Assembly (NCBI GenBank): GCA_022393335.1
Contig: JAJEKB010020660.1
Location: forward strand, 21,114-85,113
Length of the DNA stretch: 64,000 bases
Direction: 5' to 3'
DNA from: Macrotrachela quadricornifera
Taxonomy: Eukaryota > Rotifera > Eurotatoria > Philodinida > Philodinidae
Position numbers and translations under genes: made by a program. Positions 36,117 through 51,532 of the stretch are shown here, in pieces (within the stretch, counting starts at the first letter, position 1; the number at the start of each line of letters is the position of its first letter). The notes under the pieces are model-generated. The model ran no database searches. It saw only the letters and a list, made by a program, of their open reading frames with translations, and was not told the origin of the DNA.

Positions 36117-39100
36117 AAAACATGCGATCTGCGCTTTCATAACGTATGCACAAAGTACAATATTTTACAGCAACTTTCTCATAATAAATTAGGTACCCTA
36201 TCTTATAATGCATATCTTGAATGTATTTTAGAATGATCCAAGCTCCGGTGACAGAAGATTTCGGTCAAATATATTTTGCAACAAATGATAGATTGTCTCG
36301 GGTAAAGTATTTTTTTTGTCTAATATATAAGATAAGAATGATGCAGGCTAGTTTTCTCATTTGTATGCAGTACATTCGATTTCCATTTCAACCAATACTG
36401 TCGAACGAAAATGAAAATGATCTTGTACCACAAGCACATTCAAAAACTGAAAAGAAACATCAAACAGCAATGACACAAAGTAGCCGTTACGCAGGGGTGC
36501 AACAAGAAGAGTACAAGTCTGTCGAGAGAGGGCAAAATATATCTCATGACGGATTAACTGCATTAAAACAACCGTCAACAATTAGGCATCGTCGAACTAG
36601 TTCAGAATCATTTGCAGAATTCACCGAAAACAATAGCGATGAACCTGTAGTGGTGAGAAAGAAAGAAGTATTGTCGCCCGCAGCTGAAATTGTTGATTTT
36701 ATGAGAAATGCATGGAAATTACCGGTGCCTGGTCTGATCATTTCAGTGACTGGAGGAGCAAAGTATTTTAGAATTGTATCACCAAGAATGCGAAATGCGC
36801 TTCAACAAGGCTTGATAACTGCAGCGATGGCAACAGGTAAAGTCTTCATTTAATGAGAAAAATCTTTTATTAAAATAATTTTAAATCATTATTTTAGACG
36901 CATGGGTTTTCACAGCTGGAACTAATTCTGGGATAATCAGAGAAGTCGGTGATGCATTTGACAAATTTCGATATAAAAATGCGACGAGTGTATTGACAAT
37001 TCCTTGTATTGGCATTTGCAGTTGGTATGCAACCACAGGTTTGCAGATTTTTATTTTAACTTATTCCTGTTTTCTCGATAATGATGAATGATCGTATCTA
37101 GATTACGCACAGCTATTACAAAACCCTCGTATAAATTCACCTTCAACAACATCGTCCAGTGATAACAATTCAAATCATCCATTGAATCAGGTATTCATAA
37201 GTTATTCCATGGAACATTTTAGAAATATGCAATTATTCTCTCCATATTCATTAATTTGTTGTAGATTACAAAAGACGATGAGAAGAATGTGAGTGATACT
37301 TTCTTAGCTCAATCAGAAAAAGGAAGTCAAGACCGTATACGTTTGTATCGAACACGATTTCCGTCAGAAGAAGGAGAGCCTGAATCGTATCCTCTTGATC
37401 ATAATCATACACATTTCATTCTATTAGATGATAATTTTGGATCAGTGGATAGACTTTGGAGGACTAAATTTGTTGATCGTCTTCGGGCTGATTTAATATT
37501 GCCTATGCGTGCTCAAATTGAACAAGAATCACGAAAAATAATTCAAAAAGAATCACAAAAAGTAACTCAACAAGGACAAAGTAAATTCTATTATCAATTT
37601 CATAATGGAATTGAAAAAGCATCTGTATATTTTCAGCAAACATAATTCCAATTGTGCAAATTCTTATCGAAGGTGGAATTTCTTCGATTCTTACTGTGTG
37701 TGAATCAATTGAAGCTAAAACACCTGTTATTGTCATTGATGTAAGACAATTTGTTTATGATAAATAACAGAGCAAATTTGTATTATTTTTCTTTTCATAT
37801 TCTAGGGCACTGGGCGTGCAGCAGATTTGATTGCATATGAATATAAGCTTTTATATGGAGAACATAATCGATCAAAAAAACACTATGAGAAAATTGCAAA
37901 CGGTGAAGGATCACATTTGAAAGCATAGTATGTATATAGTAACGGGTGTCCCATAATGAATGAGCCTCTCAGTATTTTGCATATTTCTCACCTATAATTC
38001 AGCTTAGAAAGTAAAATTTTTTATAGAAAGATTCCTCATGAAATTCTCAACAAAATGTAGATATTTTTATTATCTTAAAGAATTTCCATTATCTTGTTAG
38101 ATTTGATGGAATCGATATGTCCAAGAAGCATAACTTTCAACAAGAAGTTTTTAGTAAGATTAGCATATCTCAAAATTACTGAACTACGGAGAAATGTCAC
38201 TTAGTAGGTTTTGTAGAGGAAAATTTGCTCTACAACACAGAATAGTCGCATCCTCAAATGCATTTGGATACAATGAATAAATATTAATAGAATATTGTAT
38301 ACTATATCCATATAAAAATTACGATAAATATCTCTTACAATATTCTATCAAGATTTATTCATAGTATTCAAGTTTATCTGAGAAACGGCCTAGAAGATAT
38401 TATAGAGTAAACTTTCCTCTACAAAACTAGCTATCTCATATATTTCTACAATATAGCCGTTTTGAGATATGCTAATCGATCTTTTATACTTACTGATCAG
38501 AAAAAAACTGCATTTCGAGATTATTTAGTATTTCGACTATAACACTGTTATTTGTCAATGAAGTTCAGAAAGTTGTTTTTGCCAAAATAATCAGTGAGAG
38601 AAGCTTTACAAAAAGTCTCATCTGAAAGGAAACTTGTTTAAATACTTTGCGTCTTTTTTGGTTGACTTCTCATGAAGGTATTTGCTAAAAACTTCTAGTT
38701 TGAAAGCAGTGCTTCTTGAATAAATCGATTGCGTCACATCTCACAAAATAATGAAAACTATTTAAGATAATAAAAATATCTACATTTTGTAGAGAATTTC
38801 ACGAGGAATCTTTTTATAAAAAAATTCTATTTTGTAAGCTGAATTATAGATGAGAAATATGCAAAATATTGAGAGGCTCATTTATTATGGGACACCTGTT
38901 AGTAATATTTTCGATAATGATACTACATGCTTTCTTGATTTTTAAATTTTAGCAAAAACAAGAAATATTTTGGACAAAAGTCAGACAAATCAATTATAAC
39001 TAAAGCAAATCGTGAAAAATTCATTCAAATAATAACATCAAAAGAAGGTTATTTTTTGTTAAACACTTTTAAGTTAGAGATTACCGATCATCAATTAAGA

Positions 39101-42100
39101 CTTGATGATGCTATATTGGAAGCACAGATTAATGGTAAGAATTAGATTCATGTTTTGTTTCTTGTAAAAGAAAAACAAAGATTATTTTATTACACATGTG
39201 TATATTTAGCGGCAATCTTAACTGACAATGAACAAAATCAAAATTCAAAAAAACTGAAGCTAGCTATGGCCTGGAACAAATATGATAAGGTAGCTGAGGA
39301 TATTTTAACAAATCAAACTGCCAGTGATTGGCCAGTAAGAAGTGTCTTTGATAATATTCGAATGAACCATCGATTTTTTGCGTTGTAATTGAACAGGACT
39401 TGCAATTAGATGATGCTCTACGTGAAGCATTATTAAAGGGATCTGTAAATTTTGTTGAATTACTTGTGGAATATGGAGCATCTTTTGAAAGGCTGCGACG
39501 GTTAATCAATATTAGTGACCTATACAAAAGTTTGGTATGAATTTGGTGTTTCTTTTTCCAAAATGACAAGATTAATTCTGTGATGCTTCTTTTTCACAGA
39601 ATGATGATGTTCTTCCATCACCGCTTCCTATCAAAAAGCCAGCAGACAAAAGAAAGTGTTTGTATTTTTTAAAGACAAATCAAGTAGTTCCTGTAGCTTC
39701 CGATATACCTGAACAGAAGCAAAACGATTCTTTGAATTTAAATGAAGATTTAATAAATAGTACACAATTGAATTATTACAAAACATATTTGAATAGAGAT
39801 TTGATGTTTGATCTTAGACAAAAAGAGGTATGCTAAAGAAAACAACTTCTACAAAAAAGTAACATCTATTTTGTTTGTATTTGTTTCATAGATGGAACAA
39901 TCTAATATTTTAGGTAAGAATTCTCGCAATCTAAGTAATCTCATTATTTATTTTTCAGTTGTATTTCTCTGTTTCAGTTACCGATAAATATGGCATTATT
40001 GATCATCTCCGTAGAAAAGATTCATTATTGCATCAAATGGTAGTATTTAATCAAATGGATGTCATTCGTAGAAGCGGACATGTAACCAAACTTACCATTA
40101 ATTTTGCACAACCATCAGCGGATAAACGATTGCCACCAGTTTTCTTATATATTGTGTCAACAACAAAAAATCAAGATGAGTTTACTATTATTTATCGGCA
40201 TCAAATATCTGATGAGAAAATTGATTCATCAATCAAAACTGAGCAATCAGTACCATCTACAGTATCAATGGAACAAGCAAATATAGAAAACAATATTGAT
40301 GACGTAAGTTCCATTGATCCTAAAGATATGGACTGACTTCAATATGTTTTATTTTATCCTTTGAAGCTGATTAATCGGTCTCCACCTATGCATCTTACCA
40401 ATTCCAATGTCCACGCACCATCAAAATTTGTAGGAAAGTCAACAAAATTGGCACCAACGACAACAGATACCGCGAATGATAGCTCTATTCGAATATTGAA
40501 CATTCAAGAACCTACTCTTTATGCACAGACAGGTCAATATCTAGCGATTGGTTTTGGTTGTAGTTCTGCTCGATTATTTCATGTGAAAGGAAGTGATTCG
40601 TACTACCTTACTCAAAGTTCAGCTGATGCGGCTCTTTCATCGGGCAAACCAGTACAATTTATTCGGCAAGCAATTTATGGCTTGACATTCAACTTCGAGA
40701 TTACTCCAGAAACAGGTTTCTATAAAAAAAATGAACGTTTTCACTGTAACACGATGTACAGTGTGGACCCTTCATTATTACAATAATTTCATACAACTTC
40801 TTATCTAATTACTGGGACTAAAAATGTTAACCGAATCATCATACAGAGATAACAGAATTCTTCTAATCTAATTGTCTAGAATTGTTTGGTTCTCCCTGTT
40901 TAAGAGCGTCTGAGCTAAGAGTGCTAGAGAAAGTTGTGATAATAACTTTTTAATTTTCTTATTTTGATTTATTGAATCTTCACTATACTTAAAATTTTAT
41001 GAAATTCATAAGTCATGCCAATCTTAAAGTGATCTGACGAGCACAATTCAACCTTATGTGTTTCTTTGTTTAATTCATTAAACATGTCTTGCATGAAATT
41101 TGGGTCATAGTACAGATTATTTAAATGAAGTACCAATGTATTGATCAATAACCAACTAACATTATAGAAACAGGTCTTAAAATATCGCAAATCGCTCGAT
41201 AAGACTTCTTAGCATCGCTAGAATTAATCCAATCGTAGTTAGACATAACTCAAACCTAAACCGTTTGGAAGTTTTGATTTGGGTGTTGAGTTTAGATGAG
41301 TTTGGGTTCGATAGTCAAGTTAATTGAGAGACATGAGTGTAAGCTTAGGTTTGTCTCCGTTAAATTATTTGATCCGAACATTTGCTTCTTATCTACGGTT
41401 GTTAAGTAAAGAAAGATATTGTTCAGTTTTGATAAACTGTATCTACTAATATTTATCTGAGAAAGCTTTAGAAAATTTTAAAAATATATTTGCTTTAACA
41501 GACATGTACGTTATTATCTTTATATAGTGACACGAAAATTTGTTGTCAATAAACCTATACGAAAATTAAAAAAATATAAGTATAGTATATATTTTAAAAA
41601 TAACTTGTTGTTAAACATCTATCATTCTTTAGGAGAGAATTTTAAATTTTCTTTTTTAGTTTACATCTGTTTTTATCAGTTGATACATAATAATAAGATA
41701 GCATCAGACAGTATGACGTCAAATCCAATTTGATATTTAGTTATAAAAGTCAAAAGATCGGAACTTTGTTTCCAAGCAACTGAATAGAATATTGAAACAA
41801 ACGTTCTCGATTATTTTATCTTTGTATCGAATGTAAATTTGATTGATTATTCGAGAATTAATGTAGCTGGTGTGTCAGAATAAATGAGCCTCTCAGTATT
41901 TTACATATTTCTCACTTATAACCCACTCCTCTTTAATTCTGGCGCGGATATTAGAATGCACTGGAAATTTCAGCTCAAAAGAATGTTCTACTCACGAGAT
42001 ATTGAATTCTTAAGATTAACGTTCATCCTATGAAAGAAGTGCGAACCTCATGTTTTTTTGGGAATTCAATATCTCATGAAGAGAATATTCTTTTGAGTTA

Positions 42101-45100
42101 GAATTTTCTGTGCATTCCAGACATAAGCATAGCTATCAGTAAGTTAAACTTCAGCTCCAAATAATGTCATTCTATTTTTTGCTGCATATTGAGCTATAAA
42201 CTGAGATTATACTAAAACAGCTATAACTCTGGAAGCAAGGCCTAAGAGCACATATCCATTTGGGGTTTTTCATACCTCATCAATGTCTATCTATGGCCAA
42301 AAGATGGACTCTAAATTTGTTGGACATCTCAGGACCTATCCTCATGAGTATGAAAGTAAGGTGAGCGATAGATCTCAGAAATTTCATAGGATTTTATACC
42401 AGTATGGCAATAGACTTCAATATCATGCCTATGTACAAATTTATGTAAAGAGAGAATGAGCGTGGTAATATTGAGACCTCTATCAGGGTTTCTAAAGCTG
42501 CCATAACAATGTCTATCAAAACACTTGCGATCGGTGGTACTCCGAACTATTACCTTTATACGTCAATCGTATGTGAAAATAAATAAAGAATTCTAATCAT
42601 AACTCAAATCCAAACCCAAATGGTTTGGATTTGGGTCATGCCTAATCGTAGATTCATAGTGAATATCGAGCCAATAATTCTGTATCTATTTTTTATGAAC
42701 AGAATAAAAGTACATATCATCATCCTTAACTATGCGAAAACTTTTACAGTTTCTTGTTCATTTTAGGTTTTATACGAGATTTATTCTTGTGGTCAGTATT
42801 CGCTGATCGCTCGAATCTAGCAACTTGTCTATGTTCACGATCTGAGGTATTTATATATATACAGGTTGATTACATTATTTTTAATGGTTTTGTATAGTTT
42901 GCTGTATTTATGTAAGACATTGAAAATTTGTTGTTTTAATGCAATTGGATAGAGCATGGACTCTTCTATGAAATCATATAATTTTCATGCTCTTTTGTCT
43001 AGCTCTACTCAGAAAGATAGGTAAATCTAAAACAATAATGAAGAAAATTTTTTTAGAGTAGTGTACGTTATTTTTAATAGTTTTATTTTTCATATATATG
43101 GGGATGATCAGTCTGGCCGGATACCCCAATACTTTTTTGTATGAAAGTCCTTCTATAATATATCAGATAAGAATGATTTTTTTTAGCAGTTATAGTACTC
43201 GTGTAGTGCTAAAGTTCTGCCAAGGATAAGAGGTTTGTAACCTGTTTAAAAATAAAGTAATCAAATGTCTGCAGAGAATCGGTTGTTATTTGTGAACACA
43301 TTTTTTGCAGACATGTGATTACTTTATTTTTAAACAGGTTACAAACCTCTTATCCTTGGCAGAACTTTAGCACTACACGAGTACTATAACTGCTAAAAAA
43401 AATCATTCTTATCTGATATATTATAGAAGGACTTTCATACAAAAAAGTATTGGGGTATCCGGCCAGACTGATCATCTCCATACATAAACAGAGGAAAAGT
43501 GCAATTATAAACAACGTTCGATATGAGAGCCTCGAGCCTTCTCATAGCATACAAGCTGATCGCAAAGCCATTGGCCAATCAACAGATAACCTGTCAGTTG
43601 TGGTAAATTCTATTTACTAGACGTTTAATCGATTATTCATTCAACATGTTTTATGACTAAAATCAAAATAACTGTGATTAAGCCATTTGATAGAACGACT
43701 TTGGGAGAAAGTTACTCTCTCAATCATTTCCATAAGGTGCTGCCGTAGTTACCATGGGAATAACGATAGTTGAGCGCTTTTCTGTTAGTCGGCTAATGTT
43801 TATATATATGAAAAATAAAACTTAAAAACGACGTGCACTATTCTAAAAAAATTTTCTTCATTATTGTTTTAGATTTACCTATCTTTCTGAGTAGAGCTAG
43901 ACAAAAGAGCATGAAAATTATATGATTTCATAGAAGTGTCCATGCTCTATCCAATTGCATTAAAACAACAAATTTTCAATGTCTTACATAAATACAGCAA
44001 ACTATACAAAACTATTGAAAATAACGTAATCAATCTGTATATATATATACTTTAATGCATTATCATACGGTGGTACTCTGTAATCAATGACCGTTTTAAC
44101 TTTAGAATTCAATCGTAGCCGCACTAATGGCCAGTAAAATCTACCAAACTGCAGCTGAAAAAACAAATAAATCTGAGAAGAAAAAACATTTCAAACAAAA
44201 AGAAAAGTATATACGTATTAAACGCTTTCTATACTTTTTCTTTGATTATCGTGCCATATTCTTCTATAGAGACTTCGACGTACATGCTGCAGGTATTATT
44301 GAAAAATGTTTCCAGAAAGATGAAGAATTTGCTGTTGGTATATTAACTGATAATTCTCAACTATATTTTAACTATAGTCCGTTACAATTAGCAAAAGAAA
44401 CTAATAGTCGTTCATTTTTAGCGACGAAGTGTGTTCAAAAATATTTGGATAGAAAATGGTACGGTTCAATTGATGATTATCGACATTCTATGTTCTGGAA
44501 TGTTATTATGGTAAGTATTTGAGTAGTAGTACAACATCAATAATCTATTTGTTATAATCTAGATCTTCATTACAAGTATTATTTCATTCTTCATTCCATT
44601 AATTGCACGTTGTATGACCTCTCTGTCATCGAGGAAACGTAAAAAAGAGTATGTATCCTATTCTGTTATTTTTTGATTTATGCAATCAGCTACTGTTTAT
44701 TGTAGGCCTACAAGTATAAGGCAATGGACTATTGCTCAATTTTATCAAAAAAGAGCAGTAGTACGATTCTTTTATAATATTGTATGTATCGAGCTGTCCA
44801 GTTATATTTCATAATATTATTCTAAATATATTATTTTATTGCTGTTTCCCTTATAGATCTTTTATGTTGCATTCCTATGCCTGTTTAGTTATGTGCTCTT
44901 AGTGGACTATTTCCCAATAAATAATAATGGTGGTACGCGTAATGGTTATTTTATATTAATACCAATCACAGAAATCATCGTCCATATTTTTATGCTTAGT
45001 ATTTGCATTGAAGAATGCATAGAGGTTCGTAAAAATTTGATTTTTGATCTAACTTTTTTTAAATTCATATATTTGTTTTATACATACTTAGTTTCTATTG

Positions 45101-47969
45101 TATTATGCGGAGAAACGTTTGTGTAATATTCATTGGATTCCTTGGAAATATTTTACTATTGATAAATGGAATATTCTTGACGTAGTTGCCATTCTATTTT
45201 ATATAGCAGGTTTCATTGCGCGTTGGGTTCCTTCTGAATCTGCATTTGTTTTTTCAAAGTGAGTGCATTTGCAAATTAGATGATTTTGTATGACTGTTAG
45301 CCTATTTTTGTAATTTATCCCAGGATTTGCATGTGTTTGTCATTATTTCTTTGGTATGTAAGGATTTTGCATTTCTTCGTAGTATCAGAACGCATGGGTA
45401 CCAATTTACTTAAGATATTTCACACGGTAAAAAAACAAACGGGCGTCTCATAATAAATGTCTCATTTTTGAATTAATCAAAACGTACATGCTTTACATAT
45501 TTCTTTCTACTGATTCCTACTTTATGTATTTGGAATACACAAGAGTTATATAATTGTATAATATCAGGCTTATAAATGCGGTTTGAATTTATTTTGTAAA
45601 TGAGATCTGAAGATGCTCGAAAAGTTATCTTGCGAATGAAAGATAATCAGTGGTCATCGTGTCAAATTGCTAAACAGTTATGAATGTTAGTGATTGATCG
45701 TAGAGTTAGTCGATATCAATATTTATAAAGAGCAATAGGTGATGTTGACTTGAAAAACGCGTTGAAAATTAAAAAGACAACAAGTCTTAATACTGCAAAT
45801 GTAAAAAATAAGTTTATTTACCAATATGGGAAAGGTGCAAGAAAATCGCTTTAATCATTTGGCATTTTCAAGGAAATTATAAATCGGGCGACTGACAATG
45901 ATCTTTATTTGCATGTGTAGCACGTACAAATAGAGCAGAATTTTGACGATGAACAAGAATAGCAGATAGTATTCTTTGCATAATAAATGGAAAGGTTACT
46001 AAGAAAAAAGATCAAGAGAAATATTTTGCATTGGATAGAATATTCAATCAGCACAATAATCATATTTATACTTCATATCGATAGGAAGCAGATGAACATA
46101 GTAGAATAAGATTGAGAGTGAAATTTACAAAAATAAAAGAATAATGATATAGTTGAGTGCACCATCACTCATTTGTGCGAGTACTTTTTGACGGTCTTTA
46201 GATTTCATTTGCATAATTAATTTAAAACGCATTAATAATAAGGCTGATATTTTTTAATCATATAACTCTTGTGTAGTTTAAAAATATAATGTATGAATCA
46301 GTCGAAAACATGTATATTTTAATTGAGGCAAAAGTAGGACATTTATTATGACGTTCCCTTTATTTGAATTTTATATCATTAATGCTTGTCTATGTTATTT
46401 AGTTAAAAGATTTGCAATTCTTTATTTATTTTATTGTGATTTTCTTAATCGGTTATGCTGTGACTTCATATTCTCTTATTACTACTAATCAACAGGTTAT
46501 TTGGCAGAGGAATTCAAATTCAAATTCTTCTGAAACATACAAACTAGCACAAAATGGGATTGGTCTTTGGAACTGGACGATTTTAAGAAATGTTATCGAT
46601 TGGGGAATGTGGAAAGTATATGGACAAGTATCATTGCTAGACGATCATCAAGTAGATGATGTCATATTAAACGGTATGAAATAAAGTTCATTTGTTGTAA
46701 ACTTTCTTTGCATTAAATCGTTTTGACTACTTGCAGTGGATTATGATGCTTATGGAACAATAGCATTTATCTTGACGATTATTTTTGTCTGCATAGCAAA
46801 CCTGCTCTTATTAAATATATTAGTCGCACTCTTTAAGCATGATTGAAATCTTGATTTTTTTTTGATGAAGAATAATTTTCTATATGTTTAGTGATACACT
46901 TGGTAAAGTTGCGCATAATTCACATATATCTTGGGCATTTCATAGATTTCTTCTCGTCAACGAATATCGACGAAAATCACCTTATCCACCACCAATCAAT
47001 CTTTTACATTATATTTATAAGTTTCTTAAATTTTTATATCATCTTAGCCGAAATAAGATTAGTGGTAAGTTTTCTCCTATACTTTCTATTAATTTCTGAC
47101 AAAAAAACTTTTCATGTTGCTTCTTTTTTTTTAGATAATGTTCATGGCTCACTTGATGATACAAGTGAGCTTGATTCAAATTTATATAATATAATTTCAT
47201 TCAATACAATGGATCAAGCAACAATAACTGGCACTATTACTAAGGTTTCAATTAACTTTTCTACTGCACCAACGACAACAAATCCTGAAATTTGGTTGTT
47301 TATTATCGAGGCTGCAAAAGTTGCTTCGAGTCCACATTCCTTTATAATTGTTCATAAGCATCCATTACTAGAGAAATCCGAACGAAATATTACTTCAAAT
47401 CAACAAAAGTCTACCACAATTAAATTAGAAAAAGGAATTCAAACATTCGATACACAAATCAAAATTAGAAAGGAACAATATTTAGCTGTACGATTTTCAC
47501 CAGGAGCTGGCAATCCATACAGTATTGGACGCAATCAGTATTATTTTAATGCACCGGTTGTACCTGATCTACACTATCTGATTCTATTTACAAATTGTCC
47601 TACTAAAGGTATTGCAATGAGTTTCAAGATCGAAAAAGCAAAAGGTATTCGGTGATATTCATTTGTCTGTTAATAATTTTTATTTCTTCTCAGATTTACA
47701 AGGAGTAAAGCGAGCATGGAGAGACATTCTTCGAGATAACATGAAAATAGCAACCTTGAAACTCGCTATTTCCGGTTCGAAAAAATTTTCTTCTTTATTA
47801 GTATATGTTTTTTCATTTGTGTATTAATGCAATAGATTCGACTGAACGAAATGAATTTCAAGTGCGCGACAATATGATACGTGAAAAAAGAATCGCACAA
47901 GAATATTGGGCCGACATTATGATTGATATCAAACAACGGGAAAGAGATGAGAAGGAATATTTCAGTTAA
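36117..47969 (+). CDS. TRPM-type cation channel with two extra beta-rich modules (5' end uncertain)
   Basis: Exons: 36117-36192 (tentative), 36243-36301, 36371-36836, 36898-37038, 37102-37190, 37265-37580, 37637-37740, 37806-37927, 38953-39134, 39210-39334, 39397-39534, 39600-39827, 39892-39913, 39978-40303, 40367-40715, 42767-42846, 44106-44206, 44270-44510, 44563-44648, 44706-44781, 44857-45024, 45092-45258, 45324-45426, 46403-46673, 46737-46836, 46892-47064, 47135-47644, 47694-47774, 47836-47969. All phases agree; about 1,677 residues. N-terminal TRPM SLOG/MHR region: GLIISVTGGAKYF, TAGTNSGI, ILIEGGISS, VIDGTGRAADLIAYEY. MHR helices: NFVELLVEYGASF, RDLFLW, ALMASKIY. Six TM segments follow with pore motif MWKVYGQV, S6 ending LNILVALFN, then a TRP helix (ISWAFHRFLLV). 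An unrecognised module occurs at residues about 690-915 and again at about 1437-1607. Intron 46837-46891 uses a GC donor. Predicted plasma-membrane cation channel; gating ligand unknown. No ATG start is established. Confidence 0.85.
37942..38899. mobile_element. Mariner-type TIR element without transposase, in a TRPM intron
   Basis: It starts acgggtgtcccataatgaat and ends with the mirror attatgggacacctgt, bounded by TA on both sides. Terminal inverted repeats extend about 140 bp. The interior has no ORF. It lies inside the intron 37928-38952. TIR sequence and TA flanks fit the mariner group. A third end of the same family is at 41868-41930. Confidence 0.8.
41230..42650. repeat. Nested degenerate inverted repeats in TRPM intron 40716-42766
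   Basis: The outer pair, ttagacataactcaaacctaa (from about 41235) against a mirrored copy ending near 42645 (ggtttggatttgggtcatgc), suggests old terminal repeats. Inside lie a mariner-type terminus (tgagcctctcagtatttta, about 41883) and a diverged copy of the 33.6-34.2 kb foldback family (41.95-42.11 kb: ctcaaaagaatgtt mirrored by aatattcttttgag). The frame 40361-40786 reads on into this intron to a stop, but the real exon ends at 40715. Confidence 0.55.
42880..44040. mobile_element. Foldback element with a second, near-perfect foldback inserted in it
   Basis: Outer arms: about 42885-43060 and about 43850-44035 are reverse complements (shared ttgcattaaaacaacaaatt, gagtagagctagacaaaaga). Between them sits an inner palindrome, 43102-43478, whose about 165-bp arms (gatgatcagtctggccggat at the left, mirrored at the right) look identical base for base around a loop of about 50 bp. 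The whole lies in TRPM intron 42847-44105. There is no coding capacity. Confidence 0.85.
45441..46358 (+). mobile_element. Degenerate mariner element with dead transposase, in a TRPM intron
   Basis: The termini gggcgtctcataataaatgt and, mirrored, acatttattatgacgttccc belong to imperfect inverted repeats of about 150 bp sharing cacaagagttata. Inside, a plus-strand frame starts MRSEDARKVILRMKDNQWSS and continues CQIAKQL before a stop, the N-terminal helix-turn-helix of a Tc1/mariner transposase. Near 46090, EADEHSRIRLRVKF recalls the conserved block before the last catalytic region. Several stops make it inactive. It occupies most of the intron 45427-46402. Confidence 0.75.
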
Positions 47970-48702: not shown

Positions 48703-51532
48703 ATGGGTGTCGGCAACAGCCTTGTCAAAAATAATAAAATCGATAGACTACAACCATCGGAACCTGAAGTTTTAGAATTAGGTAAATTTGGAACGATCGT
48801 TTTGACAGCTCCAGCCTATAATGATCCGAAGGCTTCTGATGAAAGAAATCCACCTACGACAACTATAATGGAGCGACCTTACATGCCACATTCAAGAGAA
48901 ACCAATCGGCTGCCTATTTCATTCGAACATGTTTCTCAGAACCAGCAATATGTTGTAGATGAAGTGAATATTTCTCATGATGCACATAATCGTCAACTAC
49001 GAAAAGCAGCAAGTGAAGTTAAGGATAGAGAAAAGGACAAAGCTAATCCAGTAGATCTACAGCAATGGTCCCCACATGATTATTTAATACCTGTTATTTG
49101 GTTAGACAACGAAGTTCGCGATACAGATGAAAATATAAATATGCAAGCTGAATTAACTAAAGTGACAAATTCATTAGAAGTATTCAACAATATTGAAGAT
49201 TGTGAAGATTATATTCGAAAACTAGATAGTACTGATAAAGTAATTTTAATTGTAGCAGGTAGCGTTGGTAGTATTCTTGTTCCAATGGTACATGATTCAG
49301 AACAAATAGATATTATTTACATTTATACTATCGCAGGAGACTATTTCAAAGAAAAATTTATAGAATATGAAAAGGTAAGCGAAAATGATTTTTAGAAACA
49401 AAATCTTTTTCTTTATTTCTGAAAAATTGAGTAAATAGCACGTTTTCTTATAAATAGGTACGTGTTGTTGTCAAGGAATATCAACTTATTCAAAAGATTC
49501 AAAGTAAACAAATTCATTATCTAAATTCTTTAGCTGAAATTGAAGAAGAATTATCAGTGAATATTTACAATCGAAAAGATGGATATCAATCAAAATCTAA
49601 TGTTTCGTTTATTTGGATGTATCTTTTTATACAAACATTGCTTAAAACAACTTACTCTAATAATTCAACATCATCATCTTCCAAGGAAACGTTGGATAAA
49701 GAGAAGGAACATTTAGTTTTAAAACTAAGCCAAATATATCGTCATGACCATAAAGTTTTGGATGTGCTTATGAAATTCAGTGACAACTATTCGTTTAATA
49801 GGGCTATCTGGTGGTATACTTGTGATTCACCCTTCTATCTAGTACTGAATAAAGCACTGCGAAATAAAAATCTGGAACTTTTATTACTTTTTCGATTTTT
49901 CATCTCTGATATGTTGCAACAGTTGTCCGAGATATATGAATACCAACAATCTGAAGATTTACAACATGAAAATCGTCGACCATCTTATTGTGTGTATCGT
50001 GCTCAACAAATGTCAACAAATGAATTCGAACAGATAGCAAAATCGAGCGATGGATTTATATCAATGAACTCGTTTTTGTCGACTACTTTAAATAAAAATA
50101 TAGCACTAGAATTTATTAAGCAACAGCGACAGAATTTGTCTGAAGATTGTCAAGCAGTATTATTTGACATCAAAATTGATCCACGTTTTAAAACACTGCC
50201 ATATGCAAACATTTCAGACTTTAGTGCCTTTCCCAATGAAAAAGAAATTTTGTTTGTACCAGGAACAATTTTTAAAATTCAAAAGGTTTATGAAGATAAG
50301 AATTTTGAAAATATTGACACTATTCAACTGGAATTATGCAGTGAAGATGATCCTGAACTGCGTAAAATTGTCTCATATTGGACAGAAAAAATTGAGACTG
50401 AAACTAATGAAACTTCATTGGGTTGGTTAATTATGCAAACAGGTCATTTAGATAAAGCTCTAAAATTTTATGAAACATTGTGGAATCGATTGCCGCATAA
50501 TGATCCATTGATCGCAGATTGCTATTATGGTCTCGGTAATTGCTATCAAAATGCTGAAAATTTTGATGCAGCCATTAAGTGGCACTATGAAGCATTGAAA
50601 GCTGCAGAGGAAATGCAAATTGATGAAAAATGGTTTGCCAAAGGTTATAGTTCATTGGCAGATAATTATCTTACTCTTGACATGGAAGAAGCACTTGGAT
50701 TCTATAAAAAAGCATTATCCATTTACATGTCGAAATATGGAGAAACACATCCAGATACTGTGAAATGTTATATAAACATCGGTAAAGTCTATGAGAAAAT
50801 GAAAAAATATGATTTGGCAGAAGAGTCATATCAAGATGCATTTGATATAACTAAAAAATCCAAATCGAAAAAAGATTCATTTGATCTCGCCACATTATCA
50901 ATCAATTTGGCTCATATCTTTTATTTGAGAAGAAAATTCTCTGATGCACTAAAATTTTATCAAAAACCATTAGAAATTTATCAAAAACAAATGCGATCAA
51001 ATGATCTTCGTATTGGTAATTTGCATGAAAATATTGGTCATGTTCATCGAAAACAGAGAAATTTTCATCTTGCTGCCATATCATATCATAGGGCTGCAGA
51101 AGTATATTATTATTCTTATTCACAGGATAATGAACACAATAAAAGGATACAAAAAGCTATTGGATATTGTAATGAGAAATTGAGGTTAGTTCTATTCAAT
51201 TGTTTTCTGTTTATATGTATTACTTTATATATAGATTAAGTCAAAACATGGAAGAAACGAATTTAACTCAAGCGGCATTCTCTAATACAGGGATATCTTC
51301 AATTGCCGTGTGTCGAACTTCGTCGCCCACTTTATCAAATAAAGTGCTAAAGCAAGATCCATTCAAAACTGAGAAACACACAAAAATTGAAGAAAATGAT
51401 AAGACAAACCTCACGCGTAAAGAGAATACCAAGCAAACGGAAAACAAAAAAATATTAAACTCATCAACAAGTCGAAATCTACCAATTACTACTAGAAGTT
51501 CACGGCCACTGTACCTCAGTACAGACGAATAA
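48703..51532 (+). CDS. R-S-E type ADP-ribosyltransferase with C-terminal TPRs
   Basis: Three exons (48703-49374, 49458-51184, 51235-51532) with matching phases give 898 residues. The N-terminus MGVGNSLV has Gly2 and Ser6, a plausible N-myristoylation signal. Residues about 120-220 form an unassigned alpha/beta region (VIWLDNEVRD ... KVILIVAGSVG). Residues about 330-510 match arginine-specific mono-ADP-ribosyltransferases: Arg about 405 in CVYRAQQMS, the S-T motif in NSFLSTT (about 432), and the ExE motif in FPNEKEILFVPG (Glu about 485 and 487). Residues about 545-795 hold at least five TPRs (for example ADCYYGLGNCYQNAENFDAA). The Ser/Thr/Lys-rich tail is probably disordered. It would transfer ADP-ribose from NAD to arginine on a partner held by the TPRs, perhaps at a membrane (inference). 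This ART-TPR layout is common in rotifer genomes. Confidence 0.86.

Follow-up and report, generated by a model that had tools for sequence, protein, structure and literature searches.

How does an ion channel of the TRPM family come to carry the same additional module twice, and what could the two copies do there? The question is raised by a gene of the bdelloid rotifer Macrotrachela quadricornifera, analysed here in a window of 64,000 nucleotides (assembly GCA_022393335.1, contig JAJEKB010020660.1, positions 21,114 to 85,113); positions given below are those of the window unless another locus is named. The gene model comprises 28 exons on the plus strand, from 36233 to 47968, keeps a single frame across all junctions and predicts a product of 1655 residues. 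A first-pass annotation made from the letters alone had read this gene as a TRPM-like channel, which the Pfam matches of the product confirm: LSDAT_euk (1.8e-45), the SLOG (LSDAT) N-terminal domain of the family, TRPM2-like (PF25508, 1.3e-29) and Ion_trans (5.2e-11). The best sequence matches in the PDB are human TRPM2 chains (1.8e-77, 6mix). The alignment with TRPM2 covers the membrane part and runs on through the PPPF segment, and the Ion_trans domain with its six transmembrane (TM) segments and the TRP-helix region are both present. Pfam found neither a NUDT9-H domain nor a kinase domain in the product.

The channel contains two insertions, module 1 and module 2, which had been taken for copies of one module. 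The exons and junctions named for them exist and are phase-consistent, each module opens with a phase-1 acceptor and closes with a phase-1 donor, and the matching blocks that had been listed are present. Local alignment of the two modules gives a score of 120, above all of 2000 shuffles (mean 33.1, standard deviation 5.7, maximum 63). The alternative that they are unrelated segments was considered and rejected. A long Ser/Thr-rich insert in module 1 confines the pairwise alignment to the first half; the second halves align after relatives are added.

The first-pass annotation had placed module 1 between the MHR region and the pre-S1 helices. This position holds, but the module does not simply precede the pre-S1 helices; it lies inside the Pfam TRPM2-like domain, which we take to be the MHR3-MHR4 region. 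The domain is matched in two stretches, profile 7–73 before module 1 (5.5e-06) and profile 147–256 after it, the better one, and module 1 is therefore internal to it. Likewise, the phmmer alignment to human TRPM2 breaks off at TRPM2 residue 528 (residue 586 of our product) and restarts at 619 (our 892), 892 being the residue at which module 1 ends. Module 2 comes after the TRP-helix/PPPF segment, where our 1406 corresponds to TRPM2 1098, and is followed by a tail that can be aligned to those of bdelloid paralogues without modules. From its position, this tail may be rib-helix-like: the match to TRPM3 ends at our residue 1402, at about chain position 1137, and a passage of PMC11785169 gives the TRPM3 rib helix as 1163–1192. 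By homology with the topology of TRPM channels, both modules would face the cytosol.

AlphaFold2 models of module 2 (predicted local distance difference test, pLDDT, 82.0; predicted template modelling score, pTM, 0.79) and of P0024, a relative of module 1 (pLDDT 80.2, pTM 0.78), are both mostly beta. A fold search had been proposed for the modules, and VIA-align returned the same leading beta-sandwich neighbours for both models. The scores for module 2 and P0024, respectively, are 10.9 and 10.3 for the phi812 baseplate, 10.5 and 10.1 for the lectin-like domain of Cwp84, and 11.0 and 9.7 for the Bxb1 tail tip, at sequence identities of 6–11%. Carbohydrate esterase N-domains (about 8) and PHR domains (6–7) come next for both models, with carbohydrate-binding modules (about 6, module 2) and SUN domains (5.5–6, P0024) lower; other structural neighbours may exist beyond the VIA-align lists. 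The module, of about 165 residues, is thus predicted to be a lectin-like beta-sandwich, where the likeness is a resemblance of fold and not evidence of sugar binding.

At the sequence level, Pfam gave no match for either window module at E up to 5, and its match for P0024 (E 0.061) is not credible. PHROGs searched with module 2, P0024 and two modules from non-TRPM proteins gave nothing credible (best E 0.11). Of the profile searches against the PDB, one had no match and the other had four matches, all to unrelated enzymes at E 0.036–0.046 (best LuxS, about 50 residues), and phmmer reached a best E of 1.1 in the PDB. The most constant polar feature of TRPM and non-TRPM modules is an FN..D motif near the first strand; in a 16-row alignment the N is invariant and the D is present in 90% or more. 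The motif may be structural.

Twenty-three homologous proteins were returned for the region, and phmmer with the two modules matched 10 of them (P0001–P0009 and P0013). Both modules are present in P0001–P0006 and P0009. P0008 and P0013 have a full module 2 with just the second half of module 1; P0007, an incomplete protein that stops in the membrane part, has module 1 only. The remaining 13 (P0010–P0012 and P0014–P0023) gave no module match. P0003 and P0004 resemble versions of P0002 and P0001. The same module order occurs in predicted proteins from four named bdelloids; the closest named protein, at 81% over 637 columns, is P0002 of Rotaria sordida. The origin of P0005 in Adineta vaga places the two-module pair before the Adineta–Rotaria split. 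The public prediction of P0001, from Rotaria socialis, fuses the TRPM with a reverse transcriptase (PF00078), probably an annotation error.

A tree was built from 22 TRPMs after removal of the module sequences, leaving out P0003 and P0004; its nine module-bearing rows fall on a single branch (100/100). Their sister is a group of five module-less bdelloid TRPMs, P0010, P0011, P0012, P0014 and P0015 (99/99), and the joint clade has support of 100/100. Loss of the modules instead of gain was rejected as the less simple course, since the TRPMs that fall in neither of these bdelloid clades (P0016–P0023) have no module match.

Genome searches with the modules returned best candidates only, and the counts are lower bounds. 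At least seven two-module loci are present in the M. quadricornifera genome: the window locus (C4268), C3326, C2741, two in opposite orientation on C4721, and C119 and C120, which may be alleles; no locus with one module alone was seen among these candidates. Further rotifer TRPMs with the module are thus found in Rotaria, in Adineta and at six more loci of the same genome. The two C4721 genes, at 650500–660400 (minus) and 773000–782900 (plus), are similar and form an inverted duplication, with a synonymous divergence (dS) of 0.08–0.09 in the module frames. A query of TRP helix and tail gave 53 matches, about 46 loci by count, including all seven two-module loci. Many of the 53 matches have internal stops, either from introns or from decay. 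The TRPM family of this bdelloid is greatly expanded, and the two-module genes are a minority in it. A literature search, at the level of listings, found no paper on module-bearing bdelloid TRPMs, and this class of channel has so far been seen in bdelloid rotifers only.

The module also occurs outside TRPM. A genome search with the module of locus C4934 listed 25 places, where seven rows are TRPM loci and the other 18 represent 16 non-TRPM loci, several of them likely allelic or duplicate pairs and two of them broken. The broken copies (C4385:696242-696602 and C4372:53233-53587) contain an internal TAG and have probably decayed. Profile comparison of non-TRPM with TRPM modules gave 99.5% (E 1.8e-22) and 97.3% (E 1.9e-11), and the non-TRPM modules, for example those of C4456, C4934 and C4422, share the family and a phase-1 5' boundary. 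In the intact copies that were read, a stop codon directly follows the module in the open frame, and the module seems to be C-terminal in these proteins. The C4456 module (79556–79975) lies downstream of exons matching Astacin (1.3e-17 and 2.1e-07) on the same strand. At C4422, C4769 and C4635 the module follows repeat-like Thr-rich sequence, for which Pfam gave nothing above the cut-off at C4422 and C4635. C4934 and C4449 have a hydrophobic N terminus, and the non-TRPM proteins look secreted. A PAN-like reading of the first C4934 exon was an impression by eye and was dropped, Pfam giving no PAN match.

A second homologue search found 13 short proteins that read like module exons, and a third found five more proteins, two of them from Rotaria sordida. 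Within the reach of these searches, which protein length and the use of short exact words restrict, all named carriers of the family are bdelloid. A four-row alignment of non-TRPM modules picked out 46 and 33 short-pattern stretches, among which no prokaryotic or viral relative was confirmed. N-glycosylation sequons and cysteines, compared between 22 TRPM and three non-TRPM modules for a shift from secreted to cytosolic, showed no clear difference. The module probably derives from a bdelloid family of accessory modules whose members also form the end of secreted-looking proteins, in one case behind astacin exons.

To compare the exon boundaries, acceptors and donors were scored for 14 TRPM and 14 non-TRPM modules, leaving out the two broken copies. 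Each of the 28 shows a candidate phase-1 acceptor no more than 20 bases from the module-start anchor. Among the 14 TRPM modules, the distance from this candidate to the following YG (or equivalent) codons is 8 bases in 13 and 11 bases in module 1 of the window. A phase-1 GT is found 37 or 40 bases past the end anchor in 12 of the 14 TRPM modules; the two C4721 copies of module 2 have no phase-1 GT in the stretch scanned.

The site of module 2 (site 2) could be compared with module-less relatives. Four such loci, C4677, C3707, C5393 and C4230, were found with the P0010/P0011 tail sequence and not placed on the TRPM tree. In each, a phase-1 intron interrupts the sequence that links the PPPF segment with the tail, and joining the exons keeps the frame. 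The intron lies 45, 45, 45 and 49 residues past the QRF motif, respectively, compared with 41 past the equivalent HRF in the window. The insertion of module 2 resembles a classic case of shuffling into a phase-1 intron that was already there, and it is for site 2 that this is claimed; for site 1, one paralogue was read. The features of an exon-shuffled (1-1) module are present, namely phase-1 flanks, the same module in unrelated proteins and a phase-1 intron at site 2 of module-less relatives.

With a confidence slightly above even, we propose that the two-module TRPM was gained by exon shuffling and that its modules face the cytosol and alter gating, serving as an additional sensor or clamp. 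An intron-bounded module from the bdelloid accessory family would have entered a TRPM and ended up at two sites, and the two-module gene was retained across Rotaria and Adineta. Module 2 would be spliced into the link expected to join the TRP helix with the intracellular ring, from which module 1 would hang. If these assignments hold, a bound ligand, a partner protein or a contact between modules could pull on the coupling of ring and rib helix and thereby bias gating. That the gate is regulated by a ligand or partner through the modules is held more tentatively, at somewhat less than even chances. A more specific version is doubtful: a secreted lectin-like module would have become an intracellular TRPM control element by shuffling into the intron of the TRP helix/rib helix link, with the eight modules of the four subunits arranged about the cytosolic skirt, sensing a cytosolic ligand and gating the pore.

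Several observations weigh against the sensor or clamp proposal. The gating role of the modules is one that we infer. The name rib helix comes from position, and the tail aligns poorly with TRPMs outside the pair of bdelloid clades. Secretion of the non-TRPM proteins is putative. A coiled-coil-like stretch is lost behind the TAA at 47967, and the window copy might be impaired; the stop could reflect a natural shortening of the protein, a nonsense mutation of recent date or an erroneous base. An acceptor candidate in another phase is also present in 6 of the 28 modules (window module 1, where a phase-0 candidate lies 19 bases further upstream, module 2 of C3326 and of C2741, module 1 of C120, and C2321 and C4156). 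Several donors have other GT candidates nearby, the module 1 acceptors of C119 and C120 are pyrimidine-poor, and many of the 28 copies are closely related and not independent tests. At site 1, the paralogue read (C4677) has no phase-1 intron; its intron there is in phase 0 and precedes the REFFLW segment by about 16 residues.

The rate of change also counts against a sensor and would suit passive spacers, or folding or stability domains kept after insertion, a reading without sensing that we consider unlikely. The modules diverge faster than the channel core, as linkers would: identity to P0002 is 59% for module 1, 77% for module 2, 84% for MHR3 and 86% for TM (119/323 TM residues), and identity to A. 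vaga is 27%, 33% and 50% for module 1, module 2 and TM. No clear conserved binding pocket was identified either, the invariant residues in alignment A1 being mostly structural. However, both copies are kept in all seven loci found and in both genera, and the boundaries are conserved. The ratio of nonsynonymous to synonymous rates (dN/dS) in the module-holding open frames is below 1, at 0.42 and 0.54 for C119/C120 and 0.18 and 0.37 for the C4721 pair (0.66 and 0.06 for two non-TRPM module pairs), values based on 10–28 substitutions per open frame and including some residues outside the module. It is similarly improbable, in our estimate, that the modules are docking domains that recruit a partner such as a cytoskeletal or scaffold protein, without sensing a ligand.

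Shuffling itself could have occurred as two independent captures of related modules instead of one capture followed by internal duplication; we regard two captures as rather unlikely, and the module trees leave the choice unproven. In a 22-row module tree, module 1 and module 2 form the two sides of one branch, a weak split (58/36). When three non-TRPM rows are added, the best tree breaks up the module 1 group, although the groups remain compatible with one-clade tests (p 0.215, 0.23 and 0.491). The phase-0 intron of C4677 at site 1, set against the phase-1 intron at site 2, would suit separate captures, whereas the boundaries are alike at both sites. That separate genes or exons were joined by eye is very improbable: the donor at 40716 is weak, but phases agree across 28 exons, the order recurs in the four named bdelloids, the module pair is found at seven loci, and P0001, P0005, P0006 and P0009 also pass from module 1 directly into the F(I/F)RD(L/I)F(L/F)W segment, as in the 40715/42767 join.

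Features of the TRPM gene in the window, with the evidence for each (aa, amino acids)
Feature	Position	Strand	Evidence
Exons 1–12: TRPM N terminus (SLOG/MHR1-2, MHR3, linker; aa 1–667)	36233..39913	+	Phases, Pfam, TRPM2 alignment
Module 1 (aa 668–892), phase-1 acceptor and phase-1 donor	39978-40303 and 40367-40715 (exons)	+	Alignment, phases, fold of relative P0024
Phase-1 intron, module 1 to next channel exon; weak donor gtttct	40716..42766	+	Same join in P0001, P0005, P0006, P0009
Exons 15–25: MHR4/pre-S1, S1–S6, pore, TRP-helix region (aa 893–1414)	42767..47064	+	Phases, Pfam, TRPM2 alignment
Phase-1 intron preceding module 2	47065..47134	+	Phases; matching phase-1 intron in 4/4 module-less paralogues read
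Module 2 (aa 1415–1584), single exon, phase-1 acceptor and phase-1 donor	47135..47644	+	Alignment, phases, predicted fold
Exons 27–28: rib-helix-like tail (name from position), TAA 47967-47969 at end	47694..47969	+	Phases
In-frame coiled-coil-like stretch after TAA	47970..48044	+	Resembles tails of P0010, P0014, P0037 (by eye)

Exon 12 has 22 bases only, and exon 24 has a GC donor (gcatga) at a GC-AG intron at 46837. An upstream exon holding the TRPM N-terminal start may be absent from the model, and given the weak donor at 40716, a short isoform may arise through the alternative frame end at 40786. Three introns contain transposon-like stretches with inverted repeats at their ends, 37937–38904, 42852–44047 and 45448–46351, the arms being 86 bases (91% complementary), 247 bases (93%) and 47 bases (79%), respectively. 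An adjacent open frame (49458–51236) encodes an ADP-ribosyltransferase (ART) domain (1.8e-07) followed by TPR repeats (8.3e-29).

Compared with human TRPM2 (6mix), the rotifer channel has the same SLOG/MHR region, TRPM2-like domain, six-TM Ion_trans domain and TRP-helix region; it differs in its two inserted modules, in the lack of NUDT9-H and kinase domains by Pfam and in the coiled-coil-like stretch behind the TAA. The beta-sandwiches of Cwp84, the phi812 baseplate and the Bxb1 tail tip are bacterial or phage structures, with 6–11% sequence identity to the module and no credible PDB sequence match. The PHR domains of BTBD2 and MYCBP2 differ in that the rotifer module has no Pfam match, and their Z-scores are in the range of common arrangements. 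The non-TRPM module proteins of the same genome share the family and the phase-1 5' boundary; in them the module seems to be C-terminal and the proteins look secreted. An intron-bounded module of an extracellular-looking family would thus have moved into an ion channel, presumably on its cytosolic side. The closest channel relatives are the bdelloid sister clade of P0010, P0011, P0012, P0014 and P0015, which have no module match at either site and offer a with/without comparison for a module in the link expected to carry ring motion to the gate. Nature has in effect carried out a domain-insertion experiment here, in a family of channels under intense study for their gating. Known add-ons of TRPM channels are the NUDT9-H and kinase domains, and, if the more specific version of the proposal is true, the bdelloid module would be a third kind beside them.
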